Source: a virus. Taken from it: a DNA stretch of 39,764 nt. The DNA is taken from IMG/VR virus record IMGVR_UViG_3300035457_000024, positions 1-39,764 of that record; one strand, 5' to 3'. Both the position numbers and the translations under genes were made by a program. A model generated the notes under the pieces. The model searched no databases, had not been told where the DNA came from, and saw only the letters and a program-made list of their open reading frames with translations. This document shows positions 16,487-34,904 of the stretch, piece by piece (positions within the stretch are counted from its first letter, which is position 1; every line of letters starts with the position of its first letter).

Positions 16487-16599
16487 TATATTTTGATCAA
16501 ATCTTTTTGATTGTTTTACAGCTGGAAACAAAAAATCTGATTTGATTATGCAAGCAAAATATTACAGGCAGTGCTATTTAGCTTATAAGCAACTACACA

Positions 16600-16676
16600 A
16601 AATTAAGTGTGAGAACTTAATTTAATAGCTCGAAAGAGCTATAAAGGGGGTCAATAACCCTAAAGGTTATTCCCCC
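16600..16676 (+). ncRNA. Three-hairpin structured leader RNA
   Basis: Three hairpins follow each other closely. Hairpin 1 is 16600-16608 with 16615-16623, nine pairs. Hairpin 2 is 16625-16631 with 16636-16642, seven pairs closed by a GAAA tetraloop. Hairpin 3 is 16646-16650 and 16653-16659 with 16665-16676, five G-C plus seven pairs with a two-base bulge. A short palindrome GCTTATAAGC (16581-16590) precedes them, and AACCA/TGGTT may pair just after. They lie in the untranslated leader of the SLT gene. This could be a riboregulator, a stability element, a terminator-like attenuator or a replication-origin structure. I do not recognise a known riboswitch. Confidence 0.65.
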
Positions 16677-16720
16677 AGTTAAACCAATTTTAAATTTACG
16701 GCTGGTTACCGATTTATTTT

Positions 16721-19439: not shown

Positions 19440-20645
19440 ATGTCTCAAATACAACAATCAATAATTGGCTCACTTTTACTCACACAAAGTCTTAAACAAC
19501 AAAAAAAAATTACTAATCAGCTTTTACCAGACTTTTTCACAGGAAAATTTATAGATATTATAAGAAAAATCAAAGAATTAAGCGATAAAGACATTCTTTT
19601 AGATTTAACAAATTTAAAAGTAGATCAAGATTTACTTTTAGAATGTATCGCCAAAAGTTCTTTGATAGCTAACTTTGAAAATGCTTTGGAAGAACTCAAA
19701 GAAGAATATTTGCAAAATAACATTGTTAATCTAAAGAATTTAGGGTCTTTGGAAGAAGTTAAGCAAACTATAGCAATGATTGAAGAAAAAGCCCAAATTT
19801 TGGACGACACGAAGTTACAAACAATTCAATCAATTATTAACAATAGTTTCAAGATTTTAAACCATGATATTTCAAATTTGGTGAAGACTGGATTTAAAGA
19901 TGTAGATGAAAACCAAAATTCAAATAAAAGCTTCACTGGTTTTTTGCCAGGTCAACTTTGTACAATTGGGGGTTATTCTGGAATTGGGAAATCTACTTTA
20001 CTTTTTTCTTTAATCAAAAATATAGCTTCAAATCATGAAACATTAGTTTTCAATTTAGAGATGGATTGCCATGTCATGTCGTCCAGAATTTTGTCTAGTT
20101 CATCTGGTGTGCCATTTGAATATTGCCATTCTATTGGGAACCCAAAAACACAAGAAATGATAGCTAAGTATGACTTAAGTCAAAAATTATCTGACGGAAT
20201 AAAAAAAATTGAGCAAATGAAACTCAAAATAGTTGATGACCAATATTATATCGACAAAATCATAAATTCAATTAGAAAAGAAGCAAAAGATAACAATTTA
20301 GAATTTGTTTTTATTGATTACTTACAGCTAATTACAACTAATAGCAATAAACAAAGACATTTAGAAATTGGAGAAATCACAAGACAATTAAAGCTTTTAG
20401 CTAAAGAACTAAAAATTGTAATTATAATTTTGGCACAATTAAGTAGAGCTACTTTGACTCGGGAAGAGCCAGAAATTCAAGATTTGCGAGAATCTGGATC
20501 AATCGAAATGGACAGTGATTTAATATTTCTAATTTGGAGAAAAAAAACAGGAGAATCAATGATTAGACTCGCAAAAGATAGAATGTTTGGAAAATCACTT
20601 ATAGCAAATTTAACTTATGACCCAAAAACTAAAAGTTACCAATAA
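19440..20645 (+). CDS. dnaB: DnaB-like replicative helicase
   Basis: 401 residues, a little shorter than bacterial DnaB. The N-terminal domain starts SQIQQSIIGSLLL. The RecA-like helicase domain has TGFLPGQLCTIGGYSGIGKS (166-185) including Walker A GYSGIGKS, LVFNLEMD (DnaB motif H1a region), LEFVFIDYLQLI (Walker B), LKLLAKELKIVIIILAQLSR (H3 with sensor Gln), DLRESGSIEMDSDLIFLIWR and the arginine-finger-like LAKDRMFG near the end. It unwinds the replication fork as a hexamer. No primase is found in the window, so host DnaG is probably recruited. Confidence 0.92.
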   Translation: MSQIQQSIIGSLLLTQSLKQQKKITNQLLPDFFTGKFIDIIRKIKELSDKDILLDLTNLKVDQDLLLECIAKSSLIANFENALEELKEEYLQNNIVNLKNLGSLEEVKQTIAMIEEKAQILDDTKLQTIQSIINNSFKILNHDISNLVKTGFKDVDENQNSNKSFTGFLPGQLCTIGGYSGIGKSTLLFSLIKNIASNHETLVFNLEMDCHVMSSRILSSSSGVPFEYCHSIGNPKTQEMIAKYDLSQKLSDGIKKIEQMKLKIVDDQYYIDKIINSIRKEAKDNNLEFVFIDYLQLITTNSNKQRHLEIGEITRQLKLLAKELKIVIIILAQLSRATLTREEPEIQDLRESGSIEMDSDLIFLIWRKKTGESMIRLAKDRMFGKSLIANLTYDPKTKSYQ

Positions 20646-20758
20646 TAAATTTATACGAATTAAAAGAATTTTACCACAAATTCAACACTTTACAATTAAC
20701 CAAAAATTAATAACCTTAATCAAGGTATTATTTGATAAATCTAAAATCATAAATTAAC

Positions 20759-21268
20759 ATGTCTGGTGCACTAACTACCAAAATACTAAAATTACTAGAA
20801 GATCCAAAAAACAGAGAAATTGTTAACGCAGGGCAAAAAATTTTTGAAGTTTATACTTCTACTGATTTTAGAGGAGAAATTAATTACATTAAATTTAATA
20901 CAGTAGGCATTTATATAACTGAGCTATTTTTAAAATACACAACAGATTTAAATAATGATGTACAGGGTTTAGCATTCGTTACTTGTTTAAACTGCATCAA
21001 GCTTTTGCCAGAATTCCAAAAAGAAAACCCCAAGAAAATTGAATCGGTTAGTATTACTTCATTAACTAGTAGTAATAACTTAATGTATGATCAAATTTTT
21101 GCTAAGATTGGTGATTCAAATTTTAGAAAATATACTCTCAGCAACTTTATAATGAAAGAGCTAAGAGATGTATATCAACCAGAAATAATCTCTGAAGCAA
21201 TATTAAAATCTGGTGCAATGACTGTTGCTGAACTTAATCAAGAATACGAAAAATTAAATATTGAATAA
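20759..21268 (+). CDS. Unknown protein after the helicase
   Basis: 169 residues, helical, beginning MSGALTTKILKLLEDPKNRE. A conserved-looking middle (NDVQGLAFVTCLNCIKLLPE) and a C-terminal helix pair (AMTVAELNQEYEKL) are visible but not recognised. It is separated from the helicase by 113 bases containing a small hairpin (ACCTT/AAGGT near 20713-20726), and it lies just before the candidate origin. A replication accessory role is possible from position only. Confidence 0.5.
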   Translation: MSGALTTKILKLLEDPKNREIVNAGQKIFEVYTSTDFRGEINYIKFNTVGIYITELFLKYTTDLNNDVQGLAFVTCLNCIKLLPEFQKENPKKIESVSITSLTSSNNLMYDQIFAKIGDSNFRKYTLSNFIMKELRDVYQPEIISEAILKSGAMTVAELNQEYEKLNIE

Positions 21269-21312
21269 ACAAATCTATTTACAAGGCTCTTTGAGAACTA
21301 CTAAATTATAAA

Positions 21313-21434
21313 TTAAAAGATAAAAAACCTCTTTTAAAAGATAAACTTAAAAGATATAAGCCTAAAAACCTTTATTTAATCATTTTAAAACTTAGTAGGT
21401 GAAAGTAGTAACTTAGTAGATAAATTTAGTAGAT
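21313..21434. repeat. Candidate replication origin with two iteron arrays
   Basis: The 298-base gap 21269-21566 contains two threefold repeats. TTAAAAGATA starts at 21313, 21334 and 21347 (steps of 21 and 13). CTTAGTAG, with TTTAGTAG as the last copy, starts at 21391, 21412 and 21426 (steps of 21 and 14). The matching 21 plus 13/14 spacing is close to whole DNA turns, as expected for protein-binding iterons. The gap is very AT-rich and lies downstream of the initiator and helicase genes. Confidence 0.55.
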
Positions 21435-21520
21435 TATTTCATTTTAACCTATATTTAATCAACAAAAAACTTACACAAGAAAGATTTATTTACATAGAAA
21501 AATACACAAAGAAGCTTAAT

Positions 21521-21549
21521 TTGACATAATGCATTTCAAAAATCTAGTT
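21521..21549 (+). promoter_or_regulatory. Possible promoter of the deaminase-like gene
   Basis: TTGACA at 21521-21526 is a perfect -35 box. With a 17-18-base spacer the -10 would be CTAGTT/TAGTTC (21544-21550), which is poor. It lies 18-46 bases before the ATG at 21567, so a weak or activated promoter is plausible. Confidence 0.35.
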
Positions 21550-21566
21550 CAACAATCAAAAGTTTT

Positions 21567-22109
21567 ATGATACTCAATTCTAACCAAATCTTACAAGCCC
21601 ACAAACAAGGTAAAATCATTTACCACAGTCCAAAAGGTTACCAAATCCAAAACTTTGCCAAAAACCAAAGTGTAGATGTGCATTTGGGAGATTGGCTTTA
21701 TTTTCCTGAAAAAGATATTTGGTTAAATTTAACAAAACTTGATTCCTTTTTAGTTCCCAAAAACATTTTCTTTCTGGCTTATACAGAAGAGTTTATCGGT
21801 ACAAGTGCAAGTAGCAATCTTCACCCGCAGTGGCATTTGCGTTCAACTCCTGCCAGACTTGGTTGGGGTCATTCAAAGGCTGGTTGGGGTGATGTTGGCT
21901 TTCATAATCGCTGGTGTATGGAGTTTTATGCTTGCACAGATATTGAAGTCAAAGCTGGAATGAAAATTGCTCAAATCAGCTTTACTGAAACTTTGCCAAG
22001 TGATTCCGATTATACTTTAGAAACAGGCAATTACCAAAAGGAAAGCTTGGAAAGTCTTTTTGAGAATTGGAAAAAGGAGGATATTTTACCTAAAACTGAT
22101 AATGTTTAA
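21567..22109 (+). CDS. dCTP deaminase/dUTPase-family protein
   Basis: 180 residues with the trimeric dUTPase/Dcd fold motifs. SVDVHLGDWLYF (35-46) matches the usual S-x-D-x-R/H-LG, HLRSTPARLGWGHS (90-103) matches the R-S-S-x-A-R motif, and AGWGDVGFHNRWCMEF (105-120) matches the D-x-G-F...E-F motif with the candidate catalytic Glu119. Such enzymes deaminate dCTP and/or hydrolyse dUTP, which raises dTTP and keeps uracil out of DNA, useful for an AT-rich phage. The substrate cannot be fixed from sequence. Confidence 0.82.
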   Translation: MILNSNQILQAHKQGKIIYHSPKGYQIQNFAKNQSVDVHLGDWLYFPEKDIWLNLTKLDSFLVPKNIFFLAYTEEFIGTSASSNLHPQWHLRSTPARLGWGHSKAGWGDVGFHNRWCMEFYACTDIEVKAGMKIAQISFTETLPSDSDYTLETGNYQKESLESLFENWKKEDILPKTDNV

Positions 22110-22123
22110 ACTAAATAAGCAAT

Positions 22124-22522
22124 ATGCCACACCTAATTTATAACCCAATAAAAAATAAATATTATCTAAATAATGAAACTTATAAATTCTGGATAGAAGA
22201 CAGAAAGATTCCAAAAAAAGAAGCGATAAATCTTTTAAAAAATTTAATTTTATCCATAAAAGAAAATAAAAGCTTCAGAGATTATTTATATAAATCTAGA
22301 AAATTTAGCAAATTTAATATTTCTATTAATTTGTTAAATAAAACTGCTATAAAATACCAAAACTTTTTGAAATCACACACATTTTATGTAAATTATAATT
22401 ATAATAATTATGATAATTGGGTGATTATACATCCAAATTATAAGTATATGCACTCAAATAGCCATATGAAGAAATTTTTTGAGATGGGTTTGGATGTGTG
22501 GAGAAAGAATCTATGGAAATAA
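22124..22522 (+). CDS. Unknown basic, Tyr/Asn-rich protein
   Basis: 132 residues beginning MPHLIYNPIKNKYYLNNETY, with several basic helices and a run of Tyr/Asn in the middle (YVNYNYNNYDNWVII). It follows the deaminase-like gene by 14 bases, so it is probably on the same mRNA. No family recognised. Confidence 0.5.
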   Translation: MPHLIYNPIKNKYYLNNETYKFWIEDRKIPKKEAINLLKNLILSIKENKSFRDYLYKSRKFSKFNISINLLNKTAIKYQNFLKSHTFYVNYNYNNYDNWVIIHPNYKYMHSNSHMKKFFEMGLDVWRKNLWK

Positions 22523-22552
22523 AATATACAAACTAATTAATATAATTAAATT

Positions 22553-22744
22553 ATGAACTTAAAAAAATCTACACATTGACAAATTATAATCTTTACTCCA
22601 AACTACAATTGGAATTATTGCTCTTTTGAATTGTCGCAAGATTGCGTGCGTTTCGAAAGAATAGAAAGAGCAAAACTAATAGTTGAAAAACGAAAAGGAA
22701 AGTGTAAATACTACTATGTAAAAGTACAAGTCTTTTACTTCTAG
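22553..22744 (+). pseudogene. Small ORF interrupted by an in-frame TGA
   Basis: The ATG at 22553 opens MNLKKSTH, then a TGA at 22577-22579. The same frame then stays open for 54 codons to TAG at 22744, with a coding-like composition (NYNWNYCSFELSQDCVRFER, later KCKYYYVKVQVFYF). If TGA were read as Trp or another residue the product would be 63 residues. TGA acts as a stop elsewhere in this genome, so this is more likely a nonsense mutation, a sequencing error or regulated readthrough than recoding. Confidence 0.45.
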
Positions 22745-22759
22745 ATTAATTAGCTCAGA

Positions 22760-22776
22760 GGGCCCCATTGGGGCCT
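22760..22776. terminator. Bidirectional terminator hairpin
   Basis: GGCCCC (22761-22766) pairs with GGGGCC (22770-22775) over ATT, with a G-U pair outside. It lies in the convergent gap between the rightward replication block and the leftward lysis cassette. It is by far the most GC-rich element nearby, and AT-rich DNA follows on both sides. Confidence 0.7.
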
Positions 22777-22804
22777 GATTTGCTATTTAAAATATTATTA
22801 AATG

Positions 22805-22933
22805 TTACTTCTCTTTTTCAACTTCCCTTTTTAAAGCTTCTTGCCAAACCAAGCTTAGAAGTGCTAAAACCTTAATTTTGGCCTTCTCTTTTTCAACTTG
22901 TGAGATTTCTTTAGATTGCGAAGTTTCAAACAT
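22805..22933 (-). CDS. 42-residue helical protein, end of the lysis cassette
   Basis: The ATG at 22933 shares its last base with the TAA of the upstream gene (TAATG junction). It opens 42 residues: MFETSQSKEISQVEKEKAKI, then VLALLSLVWQEALK and a Lys/Glu end, stop TAA at 22805. It has one amphipathic helix and no true membrane segment. Tight coupling supports coding. Unknown function. Confidence 0.5.
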   Translation of the reverse strand: MFETSQSKEISQVEKEKAKIKVLALLSLVWQEALKREVEKEK

Positions 22934-23289
22934 TATTCGATAAAAGTTACAATTATAGATATTAATAAAATAAAAGCTAAATTCGTGAGGAAAAATAGAA
23001 TTTGACTAACAATAAACATATCAGAAATTTGATAAACCCAAATCATAAACCCGAAAAAATGACCAAAAAAAAAGCTATTTTCCCAAATCTTTTTCCAGTT
23101 GTTTTTAAGCAAATTACAGCCAGTTTTTATCATTAAAAGCCAAAAATACAAAAAAACAATGAAAAGTGATTTGTTGATTGCAAGAGAAGCAACTGGGTTA
23201 GCTTCAACCAAATAACCACCAGCCAAAGACAATCCAAAAATTGTGGCTAACCAGTCTAAAATCACAACAAACAATAATTTTTTAGGCAT
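22933..23289 (-). CDS. DUF5658-like multi-pass membrane protein
   Basis: 118 residues with four likely membrane helices. The start, LDWLATIFGLSLAGGYLVEA then NPVASLAINKS, resembles the D-x-x-T-x-x-G...E-x-NP pattern of DUF5658 membrane proteins. It is the third gene after the M23 peptidase in a compact leftward cassette and overlaps the neighbour on each side by one base. It may be a holin, antiholin or membrane partner. The function of DUF5658 is unknown. Confidence 0.55.
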   Translation of the reverse strand: MPKKLLFVVILDWLATIFGLSLAGGYLVEANPVASLAINKSLFIVFLYFWLLMIKTGCNLLKNNWKKIWENSFFFGHFFGFMIWVYQISDMFIVSQILFFLTNLAFILLISIIVTFIE

Positions 23290-23585
23290 TATTTAAATAA
23301 TTTGGAGGCAATAAATGAATAAATTGACTGTACAAATAAGACTCCAACTAGGCCAGAAAGCCAGCGAATATATCCTGTTATGCTTTCGATTTTTAGAAAT
23401 CGTTCATTCATATTTTCGATTGTTTCACTCATATTTTTTTGTTCGATTTTAACCTCTGCAATAGACTTTCTTTGCTCAAGCTTTAATTCTTGAACTGTTG
23501 CAGTCAAAAATTTGATTTGCTCAAATATCTTAGCAACATTGACTTGAGTTTCAACTAAAATTTTACTTTGATCATCTTTTGTCAT
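23289..23585 (-). CDS. Coiled-coil protein with C-terminal membrane anchor
   Basis: 98 residues: a long charged helix with heptad character (about 10-70, for example IFEQIKFLTATVQELKLEQR), then one C-terminal membrane helix (SGLVGVLFVQSIYSFIAS). This is the layout of XhlA/hemolysin-type phage proteins that assist holins. It lies between two small membrane proteins and overlaps the 23572-23784 gene by 14 bases. Role in lysis is inferred. Confidence 0.6.
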   Translation of the reverse strand: MTKDDQSKILVETQVNVAKIFEQIKFLTATVQELKLEQRKSIAEVKIEQKNMSETIENMNERFLKIESITGYIRWLSGLVGVLFVQSIYSFIASKLFK

Positions 23586-23784
23586 AATTGTTTAAGAATA
23601 ATACACCGAGTAGCCAGCCAAAAATCCACATTATGAGTACAAAAGTATAGTCAATGAATGGGTCATAAACTCCAAAACTGATGACTACAAGTACAGCAAA
23701 AAAAACAAACATTTCTGGAAGTTTCTTTATAATTTGATCGACGACAATTGGATGTGTGAGAAAAGTTTCAAATATTTTTTTCAT
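23572..23784 (-). CDS. Holin-like small membrane protein
   Basis: 70 residues with two predicted membrane helices (MFVFFAVLVVISFGVY and YTFVLIMWIFGWLLGVLFL), a short cytoplasmic start and a polar basic end (NNYDKR). Size and topology fit a class II holin. It follows the membrane-anchored M23 peptidase by about 50 bases and overlaps the coiled-coil gene. Holin function is inferred from context. Confidence 0.6.
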   Translation of the reverse strand: MKKIFETFLTHPIVVDQIIKKLPEMFVFFAVLVVISFGVYDPFIDYTFVLIMWIFGWLLGVLFLNNYDKR

Positions 23785-23833
23785 AAGAATTAGTTGTTAT
23801 TAAACCTCGTCGGAATTTCCGACATACTTGATT

Positions 23834-25090
23834 TTAGCTATTGATTACATTTTTAGTAGCCTGAGAAGTTGTAGCCCCAAAACCAACCAATATTAGAGCT
23901 TGTATAATCATATCTTTGTATGCATTTAACGAGGGTACAAATTGAATTATAATTGCGGTAATTGAAACTGCACTCATTGAAAGCAAACCAGTTATCAAAC
24001 CGTTCTTTTCCCAACCGATAAAAGCTTTATTTAAGCTATAAGATTCTTTACTTCCTAAGACAATTTGACTAGCCAAAAAGTTAGTTTCTGTCTTATGATT
24101 TTGTTGTAAATTTTGGTAATTTTCTTGTAAATCTTTCAAGTTAGAATCCAAAGTTTGTTTTTCTTGGTTTAAATCGGACAAATTCTTTTGTAGTTCTTGA
24201 ATTTGTTTATCTTTGTCTTGTAATTGCTGACTATTTTCACTTACATTTTGTTTCAATTGTGGTAATTGAGTTTGAAAGTCCTGCAGTTCCTTTTTAGCAC
24301 TTTCTAGCTGGTTTTGAGTGTCTTTTAGGGCTTTTCTATAATTCATGTTGTCATCGCCTAAGTAATAGGTCAATTCATTAATTATACTATCTGCATTCTC
24401 ATTTTGATTATTAGAATAATAATTTTCCTTGTTTTCTAGTTTTGCAAGTAGTCTATCTCTTGTTTGCTGGTCAACAATTGGTTTTTGTTGACTAGAATAT
24501 AGACGGATTTTGTCTGGCAAAGTAACAGTGCGAATATATTCAGACTGACTAATTTCTTGTCGAAGTTGGTTGAATTCGTCGCGTTCAGCTTGGGACATAT
24601 CATCTTGTTGTTTAAAATATTGGATATTATCATTTTTAGTTTCGTTACTTTCGACATTAGACCAATCAAAAAATTCTTGGTTATCTTTTGTAAAAGTTTT
24701 GAGGTTAAAAGTTTTAGACCAATCAACAAATGAGCCATTGTCTTTCATTCCTAAATGTAAATGTGGCCCACCTGAAAGTCCTGCCCCTTTTGCTCCAACT
24801 GCTCCACCAGAAAGTCCAATAACTTGCCCTTTTTTGACAGCTTGACCAACTGTAGTCCTATTTTCTGAAAAGTGTAAATATCTCCAAATGTTACCAGTAT
24901 TTGATTTTAAATCAATCCAAGTAGCTCCGTTTTGGTCAAAAGTAGATACAATAATTGTCCCGTCTTCCACTGCAAAAATTTCAGTACCAATAGTGCAACC
25001 AAAATCGATTCCGTCATGAAATTTTGTAAAAGTTTGTCTAGGTCCAAAATCGCTAGTTATTGGGTAATTACTGCTGAAAGGTTTAAACAT
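23834..25090 (-). CDS. Membrane-anchored M23 (LytM) peptidase with coiled coil
   Basis: 418 residues. The N-terminal domain is an M23 endopeptidase: SDFGPRQT (13-20), FHDGIDFG with His25 and Asp29, and GGPHLHLG with the HLH zinc-ligand motif (His110, His112). A long Gln/Lys/Glu-rich coiled coil spans about 240-345. Two hydrophobic helices close the protein (GLITGLLSMSAVSITAIIIQ and DMIIQALILVGFG). It should cut peptide cross-bridges of the wall while held at the membrane by its C-terminus. No signal peptide is seen. That order, enzyme first and membrane helices last, is unusual for an endolysin. It is the first gene of the leftward lysis cassette. Confidence 0.8.
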   Translation of the reverse strand: MFKPFSSNYPITSDFGPRQTFTKFHDGIDFGCTIGTEIFAVEDGTIIVSTFDQNGATWIDLKSNTGNIWRYLHFSENRTTVGQAVKKGQVIGLSGGAVGAKGAGLSGGPHLHLGMKDNGSFVDWSKTFNLKTFTKDNQEFFDWSNVESNETKNDNIQYFKQQDDMSQAERDEFNQLRQEISQSEYIRTVTLPDKIRLYSSQQKPIVDQQTRDRLLAKLENKENYYSNNQNENADSIINELTYYLGDDNMNYRKALKDTQNQLESAKKELQDFQTQLPQLKQNVSENSQQLQDKDKQIQELQKNLSDLNQEKQTLDSNLKDLQENYQNLQQNHKTETNFLASQIVLGSKESYSLNKAFIGWEKNGLITGLLSMSAVSITAIIIQFVPSLNAYKDMIIQALILVGFGATTSQATKNVINS

Positions 25091-25119
25091 TTGACATCTA
25101 AATTGGTTTATGTTATGTA
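25091..25119 (+). promoter_or_regulatory. Rightward promoter of the accessory cassette
   Basis: TTGACA (25091-25096), a 17-base spacer, TATGTA (25114-25119). The start point would be about 25126, only a few bases before the ATG at 25129, so the mRNA may be leaderless. The -35 box directly abuts the start codon of the divergent M23 gene. Confidence 0.6.
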
Positions 25120-25128
25120 AGTTTGAAT

Positions 25129-25596
25129 ATGAATGAAAATGAACCAGATATTTTGATTGAAAGAGTCAATGAGGACAATTTTAAAGAAAACTTTTTGACT
25201 ACAGAAGAGGCTTCTAAATATATTAGTAAGTGTAAATCTACACTGAAACAATCAGATTTTTTTAAATCAGTCAAGAAAAAAGTACTAAGAAATAATAGAC
25301 TAATATCATTATATCCAAAAACAGCGTTAGATAAATATTTAGATGATAGAAAAAATAAGGTAAAGGAGTCAAAAAACACAAATAAAACTGGCTATGAGGA
25401 CAAAGACAAATTTATTGACCATTTGTTGACTCAACATAAATGGCTTAGAGAAAGAATAGAAAAGAAAGAAACTGAGGGTAATAATTACCAAATTTTAATC
25501 CTAAATTTGACTCAAAAAGTTAAAGAATTAGAAACTAGACAAATCAAAAAACCAAGTTTCTGGCAAAAAATAGCTAAAAAATGGAAAGATTTTTAA
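25129..25596 (+). CDS. Excisionase-like HTH protein with coiled coil
   Basis: 155 residues from the ATG at 25129 (MNENEPDILIERVNEDNF); a TTG at 25123 is possible but less likely. The segment LTTEEASKYISKCKSTLKQS (about 22-41), followed by a wing-like RNNRLISLYPKTALDKYLDD, is a MerR/excisionase-type winged helix. A C-terminal coiled coil and basic tail follow (about 85-155). It probably binds DNA as a regulator. It is divergent from the lysis cassette and lies immediately before the candidate small RNA gene, so it may control either. Confidence 0.65.
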   Translation: MNENEPDILIERVNEDNFKENFLTTEEASKYISKCKSTLKQSDFFKSVKKKVLRNNRLISLYPKTALDKYLDDRKNKVKESKNTNKTGYEDKDKFIDHLLTQHKWLRERIEKKETEGNNYQILILNLTQKVKELETRQIKKPSFWQKIAKKWKDF

Positions 25597-25597
25597 A

Positions 25598-25626
25598 TTG
25601 ACAAAGATTTAAATTGTTGCTATTAT
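25598..25626 (+). promoter_or_regulatory. Near-consensus promoter of the candidate small RNA
   Basis: TTGACA (25598-25603), exactly 17 bases, then TATTAT (25621-25626), starting one base after the stop codon of the HTH gene. This is the best sigma-70 promoter I found in the window. The start point should be near 25633. Confidence 0.75.
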
Positions 25627-25632
25627 TTAGTT

Positions 25633-25745
25633 GATGACACAGTTTGACTGGGTCCCTGAAATTTGATAATGAAAGCATAGCTCTCAAAAGAGATTTCTTG
25701 TAACAATATTGGCAAATTAGACTTGTAGAAATACAGGTCTTTTTT
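25633..25745 (+). ncRNA. Candidate small RNA, about 113 nt
   Basis: The stretch is bounded by the promoter at 25598-25626 and a perfect intrinsic terminator at 25720-25745, and holds no plausible open frame. Predicted structure has three parts. Stem-loop 1 pairs 25636-25643 with 25647-25654 (one A-G mismatch, loop TTG). Stem-loop 2 pairs CTCT (25681-25684) with AGAG (25689-25692), with GAAA (25671-25674) able to pair with TTTC (25694-25697) outside it. The last is the terminator stem. The unpaired region between stem-loop 2 and the terminator (about 25698-25718) could bind a target. No known RNA family is recognised. Confidence 0.65.
25720..25745 (+). terminator. Intrinsic terminator of the candidate small RNA
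   Basis: GACTTGTA (25720-25727) pairs with TACAGGTC (25732-25739) over a GAAA tetraloop, eight pairs with one G-U, followed at once by six T (25740-25745). Textbook Rho-independent form. Confidence 0.85.
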
Positions 25746-25814
25746 GTAAATAACAATATAAATTCTTATATCAAATTTAAAAATTGTATTAATATTATCT
25801 TTATAAATTGCGAA

Positions 25815-25880
25815 ATGAATGGCCAAAAAATGGGTCAATTAGAAAAAGATGACTACATACTCAGAATTGAAAAAATTTAA
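25815..25880 (+). CDS. Possible 21-residue leader peptide
   Basis: The ATG at 25815 opens MNGQKMGQLEKDDYILRIEK plus one residue, with TAA at 25878-25880 three bases before the ATG of the membrane protein gene. Its position fits a translationally coupled leader or minigene. Length alone gives little support. Confidence 0.3.
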   Translation: MNGQKMGQLEKDDYILRIEKI

Positions 25881-25883
25881 ACT

Positions 25884-26399
25884 ATGCTTTTAAGAAAAAA
25901 ACCAAAGCTTAGCTCAGAAGACAAAAGCTACATTTATGAAAAAATGTTTGATTATCAAAAAGAGCAACATGCTAGTTTGCTACAATCAATATCAGAAACT
26001 AGAAATATATGTAATCAAATCACAATTACAATTCTGATTTTTACAGGTTTTATTATTTCTATTGAAAATCAAACTATCAATACAATTTTGAGAAAACTTA
26101 TTTTTTATAGCTTATTAGCCATAATAGTTGCCATTTGGACAAAGATAAATTGGTCTATCAAAGTAACAGTTGGTTTTAATCCAGCCCAAACAAAAAATCT
26201 ATTTTCTATAAAAGAAAATGAAGATGAACCAAACAAAGAGAAGATTTTTGAACAAATTTTTAATGCGAGTGTAAGAGAATATTCAATTCTAAAACAACAA
26301 TTAGAAATTACTGAAAAGTATAAAAAATGGTTTTTAAAAGTTTCTTTAATTTTTCTAATTACAACGATTATTAACTTACTATTAACTATCAATTTTTAA
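25884..26399 (+). CDS. Three-helix membrane protein, possible exclusion factor
   Basis: 171 residues. Three hydrophobic segments: about 46-62 (ITITILIFTGFIISI), 71-87 (KLIFYSLLAIIVAIW) and 151-169 (SLIFLITTIINLLLTI). The first 45 residues and a 60-residue acidic/basic loop between helices 2 and 3 lie on the same side. The helix layout recalls SLATT-like or superinfection-exclusion membrane proteins, but I do not recognise a family. It ends the rightward accessory cassette and is convergent with the tail genes. Confidence 0.55.
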   Translation: MLLRKKPKLSSEDKSYIYEKMFDYQKEQHASLLQSISETRNICNQITITILIFTGFIISIENQTINTILRKLIFYSLLAIIVAIWTKINWSIKVTVGFNPAQTKNLFSIKENEDEPNKEKIFEQIFNASVREYSILKQQLEITEKYKKWFLKVSLIFLITTIINLLLTINF

Positions 26400-26443
26400 A
26401 TAAACTTACCTGTGAAAAGTCTAAAAACCTGGCAAATTCCCAT

Positions 26444-26461
26444 TTTGTTGACGTCAACAAA
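26444..26461. other. 18-bp perfect palindrome
   Basis: TTTGTTGACGTCAACAAA reads the same on both strands. It lies in the 125-base gap between the convergent membrane protein and last tail gene. With no loop it is a poor terminator stem but a strong candidate binding site for a dimeric protein, or a recombination or attachment core. Confidence 0.6.
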
Positions 26462-26518
26462 CTCGTAGAAAATAGCATTTTACCATTTTAATTTTGGTTC
26501 ATATAACACTTATTATAC

Positions 26519-26533
26519 GCAGTTTTAAACTGC
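26519..26533. other. Inverted repeat at the tail gene stop
   Basis: GCAGTTT and AAACTGC are separated by one base and span the stop codon of the 26525-27325 gene. It may help terminate the long leftward structural transcript, though no U-run follows directly. Confidence 0.35.
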
Positions 26534-27325
26534 TTGATTTCCTTGTATTCTAAAGTTAAGATTGACTCTAAACAAACCGCTAATGCCAGCTGGCAAAGTG
26601 TCTGTATCTAACCTTTGAAATATGTTGATGTCGTTTGTATTTGTCATACTAGAAGTATCAACAGCTATTTGATAAATTAGCTGTACACCATTATTAATAA
26701 TCTGATTTAATTGGTTGCTACTAATTCCGTCTCGGTTTGTTAAAAATATAGGGTCATTATAATTAGTATAAGTTCTAGTAATTGTATTAAACAGATTATA
26801 AGTTTGACCAAATTGGTTAAAAGTAACAGTAGAAGCGGTTCTATTAATCACCATGTTTCCAAGAAATGGATTTAGCCAAGCTTCAAAAGGCGTTTGTTTA
26901 ATACTATCATATAAGCCAAGCTTCAAATAGACTGGGAAAGTGTAATTAGTACTAAAATTGCCAACTGCGAATGAGCTATAAAATATTTGTACGAATAAAT
27001 CCATGTCAAGTCTAGTTATATTATTTATTTTTAATTGTGTTTGGCTTGGAATAGCTACTATACCATCAAAATAAGTAAAGTCAATGCCACTGCCTACAAT
27101 ACCAGTTGCGGAATCAGGAATATTGCCAGTGTAAAACTTTTGGCCACCTAAACTACTGGAAATATTACGTTCAACTTTTGGAGTTTCTGGTAGTTTTCCG
27201 TCTAATTTATTTTGCTCAACCATTTTTTTTAATGCTTCTTGTTCAGCAGGAATTATACCTCTTACTTGCATTTCAGCATCAGTTTTGGCTTCGCTTATTG
27301 GGTCAGTAGTTAGTATAACTTTCAT
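26525..27325 (-). CDS. Distal tail/baseplate protein, last of the tail block
   Basis: 266 residues. The first 50 are charged and helical. The rest is beta-rich with strands such as LDMDLFVQIFYSSFAVGNFS and YTFPVYLKLGLYD, and a final GLFRVNLNFRIQGNQ. No family recognised. It overlaps the start of the hub-like gene by four bases and ends the tail block, where phages usually encode baseplate or fibre components. Confidence 0.5.
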   Translation of the reverse strand: MKVILTTDPISEAKTDAEMQVRGIIPAEQEALKKMVEQNKLDGKLPETPKVERNISSSLGGQKFYTGNIPDSATGIVGSGIDFTYFDGIVAIPSQTQLKINNITRLDMDLFVQIFYSSFAVGNFSTNYTFPVYLKLGLYDSIKQTPFEAWLNPFLGNMVINRTASTVTFNQFGQTYNLFNTITRTYTNYNDPIFLTNRDGISSNQLNQIINNGVQLIYQIAVDTSSMTNTNDINIFQRLDTDTLPAGISGLFRVNLNFRIQGNQAV

Positions 27326-28509
27326 AAATTAGCTAAATCATTTGATTTATATTCCATTTTATCAACTATTAATTCATAGTTTTTTATTGTTAAAATATCT
27401 TTATTTTTCCCATTAATTTCTAAACTTGACTCAAAATTTATCAAAACTTTATCACAAGGTAAAAGCATCTTTTTAGCTTGAAATTGTATAGAATAAGAAA
27501 ACCCAAACCCTTGTTTTTTTAATTGTCCCACCGCTTGGTTATATATACTTTGTTTTCCTTGCTGTAAATCTTGTAACTGTTGTCCAGTTTGGCTATCAAT
27601 CATATTTGAGGCAATATTGATTGTAGTTTCGTCAAGTTGTATTACTCCAATTTGAGCAAAAGCTTGTGTATTAAAAATCCTATAAATGATTTTACCTTGT
27701 GCGGTTCTTTCTCCTAAATCTACAAGTGGATAGGCTGGGTCAATTTGAATTGAACCATCCAAAAATATGCTACTATTTTCATCTGCTCCGTTTCCTGTAG
27801 ATAAACTAGAAATAACTTTTAAATGAGTAACAACATTACCATTTAAATTTTGTTTAGGTGCATTTAAAATTCTAAAATCAAAAGAATTTGGATCATCAAT
27901 GTAGTAACTTCTAGCAGTAGCTACTTTTGCTAAATTTTCAAATTGCCCAAATTGAATAACTGGCAAATTATTTTCAATGTTTCCTTCACGCCAAGTAACA
28001 TTTCCCAAAGTATCAGCTAAAGTATTAATTAGTTGTAAATTACCAAGATTACCAGTTATAATATTTACATTATTACTACTTTGGCCTATATATTTGAATA
28101 TATAGTTTGAAGAAATTGAATTTAAAAAATTTTGTGGTGTGGAAGAAATTACACTAAATGAAGGTATAAGTTTTGGTTCTTTCAAATCTAATAAGCCACA
28201 CATTGAACGAAATAGAATTTCTATATAACCGTTGGCTCGATTAATTTGGCTTTGTCTATCTTTATAAAAAGCAATATCAAAATTTACAGTACCGTCTTTG
28301 AGAATATTTTTAAATCTAACACCAATATTCAATTGATTTTTAAATAAATCAAATTCTTTAAGAGTAGGTTTAATAATTAATTTTAGTTGGTAAGGTTCTC
28401 TTTTAGAACCATTCAAACTGTCAATCAAGATTCCACCGCCAGCTATGTCTAGTTCTCCACCAAAAAAGACTAAGCTTGTGTAAGGTTGAATTGCAAAAAG
28501 TTGAATCAT
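27322..28509 (-). CDS. Tail hub / tail-associated protein
   Basis: 395 residues. The layout (an N-terminal strand-rich part, a central YIFKYIGQSSNN segment, then a region with RSYYIDDPNSFDFRILNA and a C-terminal part with LLPCDKVLINFES) fits the N-terminal hub domain of phage Tal/gp27-like proteins, which often carry a DPNSF-like turn. It comes after the distal tail and C1q-like genes, the usual place for the hub. Lacking an obvious peptidase or glycosidase domain, it is a structural hub rather than a lytic one. Confidence 0.55.
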   Translation of the reverse strand: MIQLFAIQPYTSLVFFGGELDIAGGGILIDSLNGSKREPYQLKLIIKPTLKEFDLFKNQLNIGVRFKNILKDGTVNFDIAFYKDRQSQINRANGYIEILFRSMCGLLDLKEPKLIPSFSVISSTPQNFLNSISSNYIFKYIGQSSNNVNIITGNLGNLQLINTLADTLGNVTWREGNIENNLPVIQFGQFENLAKVATARSYYIDDPNSFDFRILNAPKQNLNGNVVTHLKVISSLSTGNGADENSSIFLDGSIQIDPAYPLVDLGERTAQGKIIYRIFNTQAFAQIGVIQLDETTINIASNMIDSQTGQQLQDLQQGKQSIYNQAVGQLKKQGFGFSYSIQFQAKKMLLPCDKVLINFESSLEINGKNKDILTIKNYELIVDKMEYKSNDLANL

Positions 28510-28517
28510 ATCAAATA

Positions 28518-29384
28518 TTAGAAACTAAGCCATTTTCCAGCAAACCAGGTGTCAGATTGCCCAGTATTTACAACTCTATTTGACCCTTGACTTACTACTT
28601 TTAAAGACATTATATCACCAACTGCTAATTTAACTTGTACCGCTGGCAAAATAATTTTAGCGTCTATATTCCCATTGTTATTAGTTCCAGAACCAAAGTT
28701 TGTGCCTCCAGTACCAGTTCCATTCATAAGATAGCATTCAACTTGGTTGCTTCCTGTTTGCCAATATACTCCCCCAGTGAATTCCCATTTGCCTGGCACA
28801 GAACAAGTAAATAAACCAGTAGTTAAATTCACATCTGCACGATCATTATAGTAATTTTGATTAATGGAGTTAAAAATCAAAGGGGTTGCGGTTCCAAAAT
28901 TATTTGCACTGATTGTCTGGGTTGTGGTTTCTTTCCAGACTCTAAATCTTAGCGTTTTTGTTTCTACATATTGAGATGTAATTACCCAATCGTTAGTGCC
29001 GACAACACCAACTAAATCAATAAAGCTATCTTTAGTATATAATACATAGTTTGCACTGCTACTAATTGTTTGGCTACCATTCCCAACAATTGTTATTGTG
29101 TTGTTATTGCTAGCAGTTTTTACAAACTTTAGCCAAATATTTTTACCACTTGCAGGTATTGCAGGTAAAGTGATTGTGATATTACTTGTATTAGCACAAA
29201 ATATATACTGGTTGTTAGTAGTGATACTGGAACTAGTGCTAACAGAAACAACTGGTGTAGTAGGTACATTGGTAGTAAAATATGTATCTACATTGCTTTT
29301 CTGAGTATTAACACTTGCAGAAGTAATCAAACTGCCTGCTATAATATTAGCAACTGAAGTATAGGGGGTTAAGATATTAGACAT
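28518..29384 (-). CDS. C1q/TNF-like tail protein (receptor-binding candidate)
   Basis: 288 residues in two domains. Residues about 50-140 form a repeated-strand module common in phage fibres (ITITLPAIPASGKNIWLKFV, then NNTITIVGNGSQTI). The C-terminal 140 residues resemble a C1q/TNF jelly roll: NQNYYNDRADVNLTTGLFTC, then SVPGKWEFTGGVYWQTGSNQ, then a final strand DTWFAGKWLSF. C1q-like heads often bind receptors as trimers. The ATG overlaps the TAA of the distal tail gene by one base. Confidence 0.6.
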   Translation of the reverse strand: MSNILTPYTSVANIIAGSLITSASVNTQKSNVDTYFTTNVPTTPVVSVSTSSSITTNNQYIFCANTSNITITLPAIPASGKNIWLKFVKTASNNNTITIVGNGSQTISSSANYVLYTKDSFIDLVGVVGTNDWVITSQYVETKTLRFRVWKETTTQTISANNFGTATPLIFNSINQNYYNDRADVNLTTGLFTCSVPGKWEFTGGVYWQTGSNQVECYLMNGTGTGGTNFGSGTNNNGNIDAKIILPAVQVKLAVGDIMSLKVVSQGSNRVVNTGQSDTWFAGKWLSF

Positions 29385-30976
29385 TATAGGAATTGTTTAA
29401 GGTTTTGCATTAAAATAGTTAGATTTTGACTAGTACTTTTTTGAATTTTTAAATTGTCGCCTGTTAAATAATCAAAACTTTCAAAATCAGGATATAACTT
29501 GCTTAAATAAAATTTAAAAGGTAAGCTATCAATTCTATAATTGCTAACATCAATAACTTGTTTATTTTGAATGTCAAAAATAGTATCAGAAATAGGATAA
29601 TATAAGCAATTATTGCTTGGAGTAGTGCTAAGCCAAGTTAATCTAAAACCTGTATTATTTGAAGAATTTATAATTTCAAACCATTCATTTTGATTTAATG
29701 GTTCAAATTCAATAGCTAAATCATTATTAATAATTGTAGTTTGCAAATTTAAAGGAGAAGTATTTAAACTAACTTGTATATCATTACTTGTTAGAGTATA
29801 GCAAAAAGCATTTTGAAAATTACAAAAGTCATCATACATATTTATAACTGGCATATAAGTTGGTTTTGCACCAGAAACTAAAGTATTAAAAACTTGTGGA
29901 TGTTCAATTAAAATAGTTGAACCAGTTGTAGGGTTTGAGCCATTATTTGAAAATTCAAATTTGATTGTTAAGCCATTATCTTGAGTTGTGGTGAAACTAA
30001 AACTTAAATTATACCAACTGTTGCCTAAACTTGTACTATTTACAATAGCTACCTGGCTTGAATTTAAACTACCGTCTGTTGTATTAGTTGCTATACATCT
30101 AACATGTGTTACATTACCAGAAATTATTTTTACATTTATGCTTGCTTTAATAGAGTTATTAGCTATAACAATGTTACTTTGACTAATACTTGGTAACCCT
30201 GCACTTGTAGTTAGCAAAGTTGCGTCTATATTTCCACTAGTTCCAAAATTAGAATTTAAATTTACTGTGCAGTTTGTTTTTGCCCAAATATTTGAGCTAA
30301 AATCTTCAGTTTGCAAAAAGTTATTTAAAACCCTACCTGTAGTTTCCCTTTTCAGCCATTTATTTGGATAAGCAAGCTTTACAGTAGGCAAAGGGTTAGA
30401 AACTCCAAAATAGGCAAGTTTTTGCTCATTACTTAAACTAGACACAAAAAACTCACTTGTAAGTTCAAAAGCGTCGTATATTAATCCACTATCATAAGTC
30501 AGCCCAGTGTCGTAGCGATATTCTTTAGCATTTGTATAATCAATGTATTTCAAATCATTATCACAAGCTATTCTGCGAGGAGTAGCTAATCGAAATTTAC
30601 AACTACAAAGTTTGGCATTGGGTCCATATGGCTCGTTTTGTGTCCAACTTCTAGGTACTCCAAGAATTTCAGCTATGTTATATTGAAAAGTAATATTGCC
30701 ATTTTCATCTTGTCGTACAAAATACAAAATATATTGTTTGCCATCAGCATATTTGAGTAGCTGGTTAAAAGTTTGATCGTCTTGAAAAATGAAAGTAACT
30801 GGTAAAATATAGTCTGAACGAAAGTTTGCAGTATCACCATTGCTTCTAGTAGTTCCATTGCCAAAACTGTTATCATCAAACTGCGTTTTATAGCCAATTT
30901 CATAATTCCAATCCATGTCTAACCTTTTGAAAGGGGGCAAATTTGCAAATTGATAAGGATAAATTTTTTCAGTCAT
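29384..30976 (-). CDS. Distal tail protein with carbohydrate-binding insertion
   Basis: 530 residues. The N-terminal 150 residues have the Dit-like belt layout (WNYEIGYKTQFDDNSFGNGT, later KLCSCKFRLATPRRIACD). A jelly-roll module starting with FLQTEDFSSNIWAKTNCTVN (about 221-240) and running to about 370 matches the sugar-binding insertions seen in evolved Dit proteins. The C-terminal part (about 390-530) is a second beta domain. Dit forms the ring joining tail tube to the hub. It lies directly after the tape measure gene, as expected. Confidence 0.65.
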   Translation of the reverse strand: MTEKIYPYQFANLPPFKRLDMDWNYEIGYKTQFDDNSFGNGTTRSNGDTANFRSDYILPVTFIFQDDQTFNQLLKYADGKQYILYFVRQDENGNITFQYNIAEILGVPRSWTQNEPYGPNAKLCSCKFRLATPRRIACDNDLKYIDYTNAKEYRYDTGLTYDSGLIYDAFELTSEFFVSSLSNEQKLAYFGVSNPLPTVKLAYPNKWLKRETTGRVLNNFLQTEDFSSNIWAKTNCTVNLNSNFGTSGNIDATLLTTSAGLPSISQSNIVIANNSIKASINVKIISGNVTHVRCIATNTTDGSLNSSQVAIVNSTSLGNSWYNLSFSFTTTQDNGLTIKFEFSNNGSNPTTGSTILIEHPQVFNTLVSGAKPTYMPVINMYDDFCNFQNAFCYTLTSNDIQVSLNTSPLNLQTTIINNDLAIEFEPLNQNEWFEIINSSNNTGFRLTWLSTTPSNNCLYYPISDTIFDIQNKQVIDVSNYRIDSLPFKFYLSKLYPDFESFDYLTGDNLKIQKSTSQNLTILMQNLKQFL

Positions 30977-30986
30977 AATTTATATT

Positions 30987-32669
30987 TTAATATCCAGGCA
31001 CAAACCCAGAATCAATGTAAATTCCATTATTATAAGTATTAGAAACATTTTGAGTAGAGTTTGTATCACCTCGACCTCTAAAGTTTAATTGATTAACTAA
31101 GCTATTTATTAATTCTTTAGTACCATTGGCATTTATAATTCCAAGCTCTTGCCCTGCCATTTTGCCAACACCTTCATTGACATTGATTAATTGCCCGCCG
31201 TTGGCAAAACCAACTATTCCACCATTGGCAAAACCCAAAGCTTTTACAGCTTGATCGCCACCAGGCACACCAGCAAAAATTCCTTTTACCAACCCTTTCA
31301 AAAAATCTCTTAATCCTTCTCCGCCTTTTTTCAATAAATCACCCCAATTGATAGAGTTAAAAAAGTTGCCAATTGAATTAAGTGCACTTTTAGCTCCATT
31401 TTCTAAACCTTTCCAAACATTATTCCAGTCAACCTGTGATATTAATGCAGTAATTTTATTAATTGCTTCTGCAACATACAAAGGAAGTTTAATTGGTAAA
31501 GTAATAAAAAAGCCAATAATTTTCCCAGTTTCCTCCAAAGCATGATCTTTGAAATAAGTAAAATAGCTACTCATTTGATTTATACTAAAATTTATTCCAT
31601 TTTTTACTATTTCATTTGTATTATATAAGTAAATTAAAGCCCCAGTAATTGCACCAATTGCAACTACTGTAATACCAATTGGTCCAGTGACAAAAGCAAG
31701 TATAGTTCCAAATCCACCAATTGCGGTTGTTGTGCCTGCTACAGTGGTAGTAGTAGTAGCAAAAAATCCTATTAAAGAACTAATAACTGGTCCAAAAATC
31801 CCAATTGCTGTATTTACACCACTAAATACTGTTAAAAGCCCTACAAAACTTGTAACAGTTATAGCAATAGCATTAGTTAATTCTGGATAGGCAATAACAA
31901 ACTCATTAATTTTAGTTATAGAATTAACTAAAAAACTATAAATACCACTATTTTGTAATATATTTCCAAGCGTTTGATCAATATTATCTGAAAGCGTACT
32001 AAGTTGTCCTCGCAGTGTTTTACTAAGTTTATCAATTCCCCCTTCGTATTTCTTAGCTATAATATCCTGAACTTTTGCATATAATTCATCTACTGATTGT
32101 ACCACAGAGCCGTCTTTTGCAAAAGTAATTCCTGCTTTGGTCAAATCTTGCATACCAATAACCCCTCTTTCAAATAATTGGTTCAAATTTTCTCTTGATT
32201 TATTTTGAGAAAGTTGCCCCAAAATCAATGCTAAATCACTCATGCTAGAACCAGTAATTGCAGATGTATTACCTATAGTTTTTAGGCTTTTTTCAGTACG
32301 AATCCCAAAATTTTGAAGTATTGTGTCTGCTTTAACAATCTCATCTAATTTAAAAGGACTTTCTATCGCAAATTTATTTAGTTCTTTTAATCTAGTAGTG
32401 GCTTTCTCAGCACTTCCAAGAATAACTTCATATTTTGATTGTGCTATTTGTAGTTGTGAAACATTATCCAAAGCTTTTTGTCCTAATTTTCCTAAACTAA
32501 TTGTGCCTAAAACAGCAGTGGTAGCATTAGCAAAAGCACTAGCAAAACTATTACCAACATTTTTACCTATTTCAGTAGCTTTATTTTTTGATTTATTTAG
32601 TTCCACATCTATTTTGGCAGACAAGTCACTAACTTCAAAAAGTACTCTATATAGCAAATCATCACTCAT
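30987..32669 (-). CDS. Tape measure protein
   Basis: 560 residues. The N-terminus is helical with Ala-rich segments (GNSFASAFANATTAVLGTIS). The region about 75-240 has the tape-measure-domain pattern (LKELNKFAIESPFKLDEIVK, later LILGQLSQNKSRENLNQLFE). Two long hydrophobic stretches (about 262-300 and 320-350) can enter the membrane at DNA ejection, and the C-terminus has repeated GFANGG motifs. It sets tail length; at the usual 1.5 angstrom per residue this suggests a tail of roughly 80-85 nm. It follows the frameshifted chaperone genes. Confidence 0.88.
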   Translation of the reverse strand: MSDDLLYRVLFEVSDLSAKIDVELNKSKNKATEIGKNVGNSFASAFANATTAVLGTISLGKLGQKALDNVSQLQIAQSKYEVILGSAEKATTRLKELNKFAIESPFKLDEIVKADTILQNFGIRTEKSLKTIGNTSAITGSSMSDLALILGQLSQNKSRENLNQLFERGVIGMQDLTKAGITFAKDGSVVQSVDELYAKVQDIIAKKYEGGIDKLSKTLRGQLSTLSDNIDQTLGNILQNSGIYSFLVNSITKINEFVIAYPELTNAIAITVTSFVGLLTVFSGVNTAIGIFGPVISSLIGFFATTTTTVAGTTTAIGGFGTILAFVTGPIGITVVAIGAITGALIYLYNTNEIVKNGINFSINQMSSYFTYFKDHALEETGKIIGFFITLPIKLPLYVAEAINKITALISQVDWNNVWKGLENGAKSALNSIGNFFNSINWGDLLKKGGEGLRDFLKGLVKGIFAGVPGGDQAVKALGFANGGIVGFANGGQLINVNEGVGKMAGQELGIINANGTKELINSLVNQLNFRGRGDTNSTQNVSNTYNNGIYIDSGFVPGY

Positions 32670-32671
32670 AA

Positions 32672-32965
32672 TTAAATTTTAATTGTATTTAAACCATTTA
32701 TTTTCTCTTCATTAATCAAATACAAATAATCAGATTGCATTCTTGGCTCTTTTTCTGTACCTGCATTATATTCAAACATACCATTTAAAAAACCCCAATT
32801 TGTGTAAGAAATAAACATTTCGTACATACTTTCTACCGTTTCATTTTCCAAATCTTTTTTACCATCGCCCAAAACATGAAGCATTTTCCAGTACACAGCC
32901 TTTACTCCTTTGGCAAAATATCCATTTGAGAGGTTTGAGCCTGTTTTTGCTTTTGGGTGCGGGCT
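32672..32965 (-). CDS. Tail assembly chaperone, frameshift-made C-terminal part
   Basis: This is the T part of the G-T chaperone pair. The frame is open without a stop from the slippery site at 32965-32971 down to TAA at 32672 (97 codons after the shift). The expected fusion has 217 residues from the upstream frame plus 97, about 314 in all. A separate GTG at 32896 (74 residues) is also possible, since AAAGGAG lies about eight bases before it, an unusually good Shine-Dalgarno for this genome. The T domain binds the tail tube protein while the G domain coats the tape measure. Confidence 0.8.
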   Translation of the reverse strand, partial: SPHPKAKTGSNLSNGYFAKGVKAVYWKMLHVLGDGKKDLENETVESMYEMFISYTNWGFLNGMFEYNAGTEKEPRMQSDYLYLINEEKINGLNTIKI

Positions 32966-33615
32966 AAAAAACCCTGTACCCGTGTAAATGAATTTCTTGG
33001 GTCGTTTGCAATAGCAAAAATTAAATCAGTGATATCTTGCAAACTAAATTTTTCTACTCTATACTTTTTCCAACCAAATTTAGCTTTAGTTTTTTCTAAA
33101 AAGTTAAAAGTATTCTCTTTTTCAAAATAAGAAAGTATTTTTTGCAACAATTCAAATTTTGTATCTCTAATTTTAGATTGGTAATTTTGATCAATATCTT
33201 TGTCTTCATCAGACAAAAGATGTAAGTCTTCATTATTTGCAATTTTTTGGATAACTGTTTTAAACAACTTAATCTTTGTCTTTTCTAATTCTGCTTTTGC
33301 CTCATCTTGTTTTGCTTCTGGAAGTAATTTTATTTGCTCATCAATTTTTTGGATATTTTCTAAATTTTCAAGGAAAAAAGGGATATCTTCAACTTTAATA
33401 AAATCTAATATAGCTTCTTGATTACTAGACTCAAAAGCCTTTTGTAACTTATTTAAATTAGTATTAGTTTTTAATTTTGATTGAATCCAATTATTATATT
33501 CCTCTTCGTACTCAAAAAAATGGTTTAGCTGGTGTATAAGTTCCATGCCAGCTTGGCTCATTTTGATTGTGAAATGTGGGAATTCAACCCCAGCTATAAT
33601 ATTTTTTTGGTCCAT
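32902..33615 (-). CDS. Tail assembly chaperone G
   Basis: 237 residues, acidic and helical with long Lys/Glu-rich helices. It is the zero-frame product ending in a TAA at 32902. It lies between the tail tube gene and the tape measure gene, the fixed position of G in siphoviruses. The slippery heptamer at codons 215-217 allows a share of ribosomes to make the longer G-T fusion. The DIPFFLENLENIQKIDEQIK segment (about 82-101) is part of the helical body. No direct sequence family is recognised. Confidence 0.75.
   Translation of the reverse strand: MDQKNIIAGVEFPHFTIKMSQAGMELIHQLNHFFEYEEEYNNWIQSKLKTNTNLNKLQKAFESSNQEAILDFIKVEDIPFFLENLENIQKIDEQIKLLPEAKQDEAKAELEKTKIKLFKTVIQKIANNEDLHLLSDEDKDIDQNYQSKIRDTKFELLQKILSYFEKENTFNFLEKTKAKFGWKKYRVEKFSLQDITDLIFAIANDPRNSFTRVQGFLARTQKQKQAQTSQMDILPKE
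32965..32971 (-). promoter_or_regulatory. Slippery heptamer for -1 frameshift
   Basis: On the minus strand TTTTTTA is in the exact X-XXY-YYZ register of the chaperone G frame (GGT TTT TTA). The -1 frame that follows is open into the 32672 gene. A weak downstream stem (AGCC with GGCT) is possible, but no strong stimulatory structure is obvious. Confidence 0.85.
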
Positions 33616-33626
33616 ATACTAGAAAA

Positions 33627-34904
33627 TTAAGCAATAAATTCTTTGAAAAAGTTACCTCTGGCAGTTGTCATAGCAGTTAGTTTAAGCGTAAACTTGCTTT
33701 GCTCCGTCAACGAACTTGTTTCTTCTACAGAATCTAAAGTTACCTTTTCACAAATCAAAACCTTAATTTGGCTGTTTTGAAGTTGAATGTTTTTTTGGAT
33801 GTAACCGATCAGTGGTGGGGCAACATCACCATAATCGGCAGTAACATTGGTTTGTATAGGTTCGTTGACCCAAACTGATACATTCTTACCAACTGCAGTT
33901 CCAAGACCGGGTCCTATAGTTAAAGTAGTAGTTGCATAAACATAATTACCTTCGTCTATATTAGCTACAGACAAATCAGTTGGTTGGTAAGGCAACCCGT
34001 CAACAGATACGGCAACAATATTTAAGCCTGCAGGTAGTGTAATAGTAGCAATACCGGCTCCTGAAATTGAACTAATTCCAAAATCACCGAGCTTTCTGTC
34101 GTAATTGACTGTTTCTGTTCGAGGTAAAAGCCCTAAAAATATTGACTTGAGTAAAGTATTCACTGTGCTGGTTTCAAGTTCAATCGGCATAGCTTTGGAT
34201 GTTGCAAAAGATCCAGATGGAGAGTTACCACATTTCCATTGCCCGAGTTCTTTTGTATAAGGAGCTTTGAAAGAGTCCAAACAGTTGATTCCTGCAACGA
34301 CAGGTACCCCTGCGAAATGCATTTCCATAACTGCACTATACTCGGCAGCAATAGAATAATTTGCCCCAGTGCTTGTATCGCCTACTTTAATAAGAATTGC
34401 ATTTGCATAATTCATTGTACCAACCAAAGTCCCAGTACCTTTTTTGAAAGTATAGCCTGCCCAAGTGTTGGCTGTTGACGGAGTAGTAATATTGAAAGTT
34501 TCAGTATTTGAACCATCTATATATTGCACTGTCATGGCTTTACTTGCAGTTGAATTTCTAATAACTATTCTAAAAAAGTTATCATTAACGCGAGATAAGC
34601 TTGGACCTGCAAATGTTACAGTTTGGGCAGTAGAGCTAGTGGTGACATCAATATATCCTCTGTTTTGGCCTACTAACGGTCTATTCCCATTAGGGGTGTA
34701 AGTAGTGGACGATGTAGTCAATAATGGCTTACCTGTGTTTTTGACAGTAATAGTTGCAGACGCAGTTGGAGTCCACAAAGTTGCATTGTCAAAATAGTTG
34801 CGGTTAGTACAATAAAAATCACTCGGATTCCACAAATATAATCCTGTGTATTCATCTGCTTTAAGTATGTATTTGTAGTTTTGAAATAAATTAGTATCTG
34901 GCAT
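33627..34904 (-). CDS. Major tail (tube) protein with extra jelly-roll domain
   Basis: 425 residues, larger than a minimal tube protein. It lies between the tail terminator gene and the chaperone genes, as the tube protein does. A beta-rich central region beginning YFDNATLWTPTASATITVKN (about 37-56) resembles a sugar-binding jelly roll inserted near the N-terminus. The tube fold itself is probably split around it, with strands in the last 200 residues (for example GISSISGAGIATITLPAGLN and KFTLKLTAMTTARGNFFKEF). Confidence 0.65.
   Translation of the reverse strand: MPDTNLFQNYKYILKADEYTGLYLWNPSDFYCTNRNYFDNATLWTPTASATITVKNTGKPLLTTSSTTYTPNGNRPLVGQNRGYIDVTTSSTAQTVTFAGPSLSRVNDNFFRIVIRNSTASKAMTVQYIDGSNTETFNITTPSTANTWAGYTFKKGTGTLVGTMNYANAILIKVGDTSTGANYSIAAEYSAVMEMHFAGVPVVAGINCLDSFKAPYTKELGQWKCGNSPSGSFATSKAMPIELETSTVNTLLKSIFLGLLPRTETVNYDRKLGDFGISSISGAGIATITLPAGLNIVAVSVDGLPYQPTDLSVANIDEGNYVYATTTLTIGPGLGTAVGKNVSVWVNEPIQTNVTADYGDVAPPLIGYIQKNIQLQNSQIKVLICEKVTLDSVEETSSLTEQSKFTLKLTAMTTARGNFFKEFIA

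Follow-up and report, generated by a model that had tools for sequence, protein, structure and literature searches.

Several characterised prophage small RNAs (sRNAs) act in trans by base pairing (svsR, PMC12803456; DicF, SprY and AsxR, reviewed in PMC12197685). The RNA predicted here is likewise short, phage-borne and putatively non-coding. Like the products of many sRNA genes, it would be transcribed independently and end at an intrinsic terminator. It has no sequence or family relation to svsR, DicF, SprY or AsxR, however, and its host is uncultured and probably of the Gracilibacteria type, a lineage for which our literature search found no published phage sRNA.

A position opposite the late genes and signals of their own have been described for moron loci (PMC7067206). 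Like moron and prophage accessory loci, the locus studied here has its own promoter and terminator, lies antisense to the late genes and has lower G+C in its flanking genes. Unlike in such loci, no integrase was recognised among the phage proteins scanned, and close relatives were not found. The DUF3800-IX RNA (RF02968) occurs in the same genome, on the plus strand and behind an intergenic TTGACA, as the new RNA does, but it has a defined junction fold and scores 42 bits against its model, whereas the new RNA matches no family. Transcription-attenuated leaders of the riboswitch or leader-peptide type share with the locus a promoter, a short RNA and a terminator that precede a gene of the same orientation, but the locus lacks an antiterminator, has a long gap to the gene and matches no such family.

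Phage genome and probable host

The window (the whole stretch of DNA that was analysed, 39,764 nt) is a complete, circularly closed phage genome, because an exact 123-base direct repeat occurs at both termini (1–123 and 39642–39764). The genome has a G+C content of 30% and encodes a terminase, a portal protein, a major capsid protein, a tape-measure-like protein, a DnaB helicase, a Rha/KilAC-type regulator and a Mom-like DNA modification protein. The Mom-like protein (7156–7845, minus strand) matches Pfam at E = 1.9e-50 and also PHROG 1384. A frame at 14362–14793 contains an 18-base unit repeated 7.6 times (14625–14761). Shine–Dalgarno sequences are absent from the genes of this phage.

The closest relative of the terminase (49–53% identity) is found on IMG/VR contig 3300027996_000531.

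5317–6564 of the window: terminase; the terminase of the closest relative lies at L005 3001–4197

That contig has 21 in-frame TGA codons, which translation table 25 reads as glycine at conserved positions, so the lineage points toward the Gracilibacteria/Absconditabacteria neighbourhood. The host of the phage is probably a tiny Gracilibacteria-like bacterium. The long frames of the window are open under the standard code, and its genes look compatible with both codes. TGA is the stop codon in 5 of the 48 genes, each time with a TAA or TAG within 2–25 codons. Code-11-compatible phages are targets of Gracilibacteria spacers (PMC10746230), and the stop-codon use of the window resembles theirs.

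A promoter–terminator pair

The locus is made up of the following features.

25129–25596, plus strand: 155-aa protein with a weak HTH_17 match and its own TTGACA at 25091
25598–25626, plus strand: promoter TTGACA-N17-TATTAT, 11/12 match, extended −10 (TGC)
25633–25745, plus strand: predicted RNA of about 113 nt, its start inferred 7 nt past the −10
25634–25666, plus strand: 10-codon ATG frame (MTQFDWVPEI) at the 5′ end of the predicted RNA
25719–25745, plus strand: intrinsic terminator with a 9-bp stem, a GAAA loop and six U
25815–25880, plus strand: 21-codon ATG frame that ends 3 nt before the start of the membrane-protein gene
25884–26399, plus strand: 171-aa membrane protein, predicted to be all-helical, with hydrophobic segments

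The original prediction described a near-perfect promoter and a terminator with a GAAA loop and six T, and both descriptions were borne out. TTGACA (25598–25603) and TATTAT (25621–25626) are separated by a spacer of 17 nt, and this is the best of the 92 promoter-like sites in a scan of 20000–39764 and the sole one that matches at 11 of 12 positions. The terminator stem (25719–25727 paired with 25732–25740) includes one G–U pair and runs into the U-run at 25740–25745; the hairpin alone folds at −10.1 kcal/mol. Promoter-like sites (92 versus 95) and terminator-like sites (6 versus 8) are both present at chance level, so either signal alone says little. The pair is rare. When the whole window was shuffled with its dinucleotides preserved, 1 of 979 sequences had a promoter matching at 11 or more of 12 positions with a terminator of 8 bp or longer 40–300 nt after it on the same strand. 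Positions 25633–25745 are likely to be a transcription unit.

Promoter grammar of the phage

TTGACA occurs 12 times in the 3,880 intergenic bases, about a five-fold excess over the 2.3 expected, and together with its reverse complement it ranks as the commonest of 180 anagrams in intergenic DNA. A TAnnnT-like hexamer (A at position 2 and T at position 6, as in TATAAT) lies exactly 17 nt 3′ of seven of these 12 sites and 16 or 18 nt after none of them; among genic TTGACA, 1 of 25 has such a hexamer at 17 nt. The excess and the exact spacing therefore argue that TTGACA-N17-TAnnnT is a promoter grammar used by the phage. Promoters of this class lie at varying distances from start codons.

The DUF3800-IX RNA of this genome (22617–22678, plus strand; 42.2 bits, gathering threshold 36.8) has an intergenic TTGACA upstream, at 22576, so a known small RNA gene of similar build is already present in the phage. 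A DUF3800 gene was not found among the phage proteins scanned. At 16459–16720 of the window, about 230 bases that contain no clear gene separate a TTGACA-N17 site from an SLT-domain frame; Rfam gave no match there, and the region may be a further leader or small RNA. We also noticed by eye a repeat of about 24 bases, tttatgtcaagagaaaaatttagt, at 15636–15660 and 16436–16460, near two TTGACA sites, which is possibly an operator.

A moron-like position and its neighbours

The upstream gene, the RNA unit and the membrane-protein gene all lie on the plus strand and are inserted in a minus-strand late block, where an M23 peptidase gene flanks them on one side and a further gene of the block on the other. 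The G+C content of the two insert genes is 24–26%, compared with 31–32% in their surroundings. The placement opposite the late genes, the promoter, the terminator and the genome-wide promoter grammar together support the moron-type cassette that had been proposed.

The same proposal placed an HTH regulator before the RNA and a membrane protein after it. The second half stands, with an all-helical prediction and hydrophobic segments (structure model only fair, pLDDT 67); the first holds only weakly, as the upstream protein matches Pfam HTH_17 at E = 0.11, below the cut-off, and its structure model is poor (pLDDT 48). The codon score of the upstream gene is within the range of other phage genes. 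Searches of Pfam, PHROGs, PADLOC and NCBIfam gave neither protein a match that passed the threshold. The membrane-protein gene starts 139 nt past the terminator, and the 21-codon frame just before it (codon score 0.45 over 20 codons) is possibly a small gene. A perfect 18-bp palindrome, TTTGTTGACGTCAACAAA, occurs at 26444–26461, 3′ of the membrane-protein gene, and a related sequence, TTTGTTGACTCAACA, lies inside the upstream gene at 25422–25436.

Fold and coding content of the predicted RNA

At least two more stem-loops had been claimed between the promoter and the terminator. Such stem-loops are predicted, yet the body of the RNA without its terminator (25633–25718) folds at the level of shuffled sequences (z = +0.16; 114 of 200 shuffles fold as well), and this part of the claim found no support. 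On the same value we set aside a structure-conserved RNA. The z-scores of 25633–25745 (−1.59) and 25630–25748 (−2.6) are due to the terminator and its flanks. Unpaired probabilities indicate an A/U-rich unpaired part at about 25698–25718, and the body is largely unstructured.

No Rfam family reaches its gathering threshold for this RNA, in agreement with the earlier impression that it belongs to no known family. Several specific identities were tried and rejected. Nothing at the site matched a DUF3800-type RNA, and for a riboswitch there was neither an antiterminator nor an Rfam family. A guide RNA of the box C/D or TIGR-Tas kind was rejected too: there is no array at the site, a TIGR array being by definition a tandem dual-repeat array (PMC12045711), and the box pair is at chance level: the TGATGA...CTGA pattern was found 3 times, compared with 1.6 in shuffles. 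One of the three lies in the RNA and accounts for its sub-threshold matches to C/D snoRNAs.

The stretch had also been described as free of open frames. This is nearly correct: on the minus strand, two TTG frames score as non-coding by codon use and a gene across the stretch was rejected, but on the plus strand the 10-codon ATG frame is present.

Searches for relatives

Neither the RNA nor its neighbours had a convincing homologue in the viral, phage, plasmid or Patescibacteria searches. Two exact patterns of 20–21 bases from the RNA had no match in viral contigs, and the RNA had none in plasmids. In phages there were short partial matches only (E ≥ 0.01). A set of 380 Patescibacteria genomes yielded four matches (18–34 nt, E ≤ 0.01), which equals the chance expectation. 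These searches used exact patterns and first-look filters that distant relatives would escape, and the genome search also missed the DUF3800-IX RNA of the window itself. A search of 231 loci with nhmmer gave no match, and the region is absent from the stretches examined around relatives of the terminase.

Against viral contigs, the membrane protein, the HTH protein, the M23 peptidase and DnaB each returned no relatives, as did the HTH and membrane proteins against phages. The membrane protein had one marginal match (27%) in the 380 Patescibacteria genomes, within a 485-aa frame.

Proposed function and alternative explanations

The promoter, the terminator and the placement antisense to the late genes are read directly from the sequence. 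The small RNA gene of the original prediction gains support, as a predicted autonomous transcription unit, from the promoter, the terminator and the promoter grammar. We favour a moron-type unit of this kind that makes an RNA of about 113 nt acting in trans by pairing, an explanation that we rate at roughly an even chance. The housekeeping RNA polymerase of the host would start near 25633 at the strong promoter and halt at the intrinsic terminator at 25745, yielding the RNA. The RNA may then act in trans by base pairing through the A/U-rich unpaired part beside the U-tailed terminator, possibly on transcripts of the host or of other mobile elements. As the body has no stable fold, a pairing RNA fits better than a ribozyme, a riboswitch or a protein-scaffold RNA. 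Any of the roles first suggested for it (antisense RNA, decoy, anti-defence RNA or host regulator) may apply. Segment 25698–25718 had been put forward as the seed; a check against the phage genome gave no target beyond shuffled seeds, with no phage gene start scoring better than they do (39 of 100 shuffles were equal).

The main rival, which we consider rather unlikely, is that the RNA is an attenuator, the promoter serving 25815–26399 and read-through of a premature terminator in the 5′ leader setting the level of expression. The promoter, the RNA and the downstream genes are on the same strand, and the absence of another good promoter between the terminator and 25884 counts for this explanation; the sole other promoter-like site within 25741–25884 is TTAAAA-N19-TATAAA (9/12). 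The read-through RNA (25633–25884) folds better than shuffles (z = −2.63), and 25659–25668 is complementary to 25770–25779, around the terminator, although a complementarity of 10 nt also occurs in 16 of 300 shuffles. Against an attenuator, an RNA cut at the 5′ arm of the terminator pairs with that arm by 4 bp only, a gain of about 0.5 kcal/mol, which gives no antiterminator; the gap of 139 nt from terminator to membrane gene and the lack of a matching Rfam riboswitch or leader family also weigh against it.

Alternatively, the hairpin could serve the HTH gene as its distal terminator, with a promoter-like site that is weak or unused and no discrete small RNA. The hairpin is indeed the first terminator past the HTH gene, and both kinds of signal occur in chance numbers, but it lies 123 nt beyond the stop codon of that gene, no promoter in the scanned half is better and this one matches the grammar of the phage, and the pair is as rare as the shuffles indicate; we regard such a chance or relic origin as improbable. 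More improbable still is a role as a short, leaderless mRNA that encodes MTQFDWVPEI, a 10-residue leader or signal peptide beside the HTH regulator. Its ATG at 25634 sits 7 nt past the −10, and we kept the frame as a candidate because the phage genes lack Shine–Dalgarno sequences. A frame of ten codons is too short for codon use to be informative, however, it is not unusual in such DNA for an ATG to lie soon after a −10, and other promoters of the TTGACA class lie at varied distances from start codons. The broader proposal that the locus is either an anti-host or anti-defence sRNA regulator or a 113-nt leaderless transcript for that signal or leader peptide beside the HTH regulator seems to us quite doubtful.

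Implications for the phage lineage

The trans-acting RNA that we favour would, if real, add an orphan sRNA gene to the complete genome of a phage that is kin to the code-25 phages of Gracilibacteria and Absconditabacteria, in which regulation has been little studied. It settles none of the long-standing questions. If the anti-host, anti-defence or peptide reading were true, it would represent an RNA-based accessory function in a Gracilibacteria-type phage lineage. The promoters of this phage appear to be plain TTGACA-N17-TAnnnT elements, and further transcription units of the lineage may therefore be callable from sequence.
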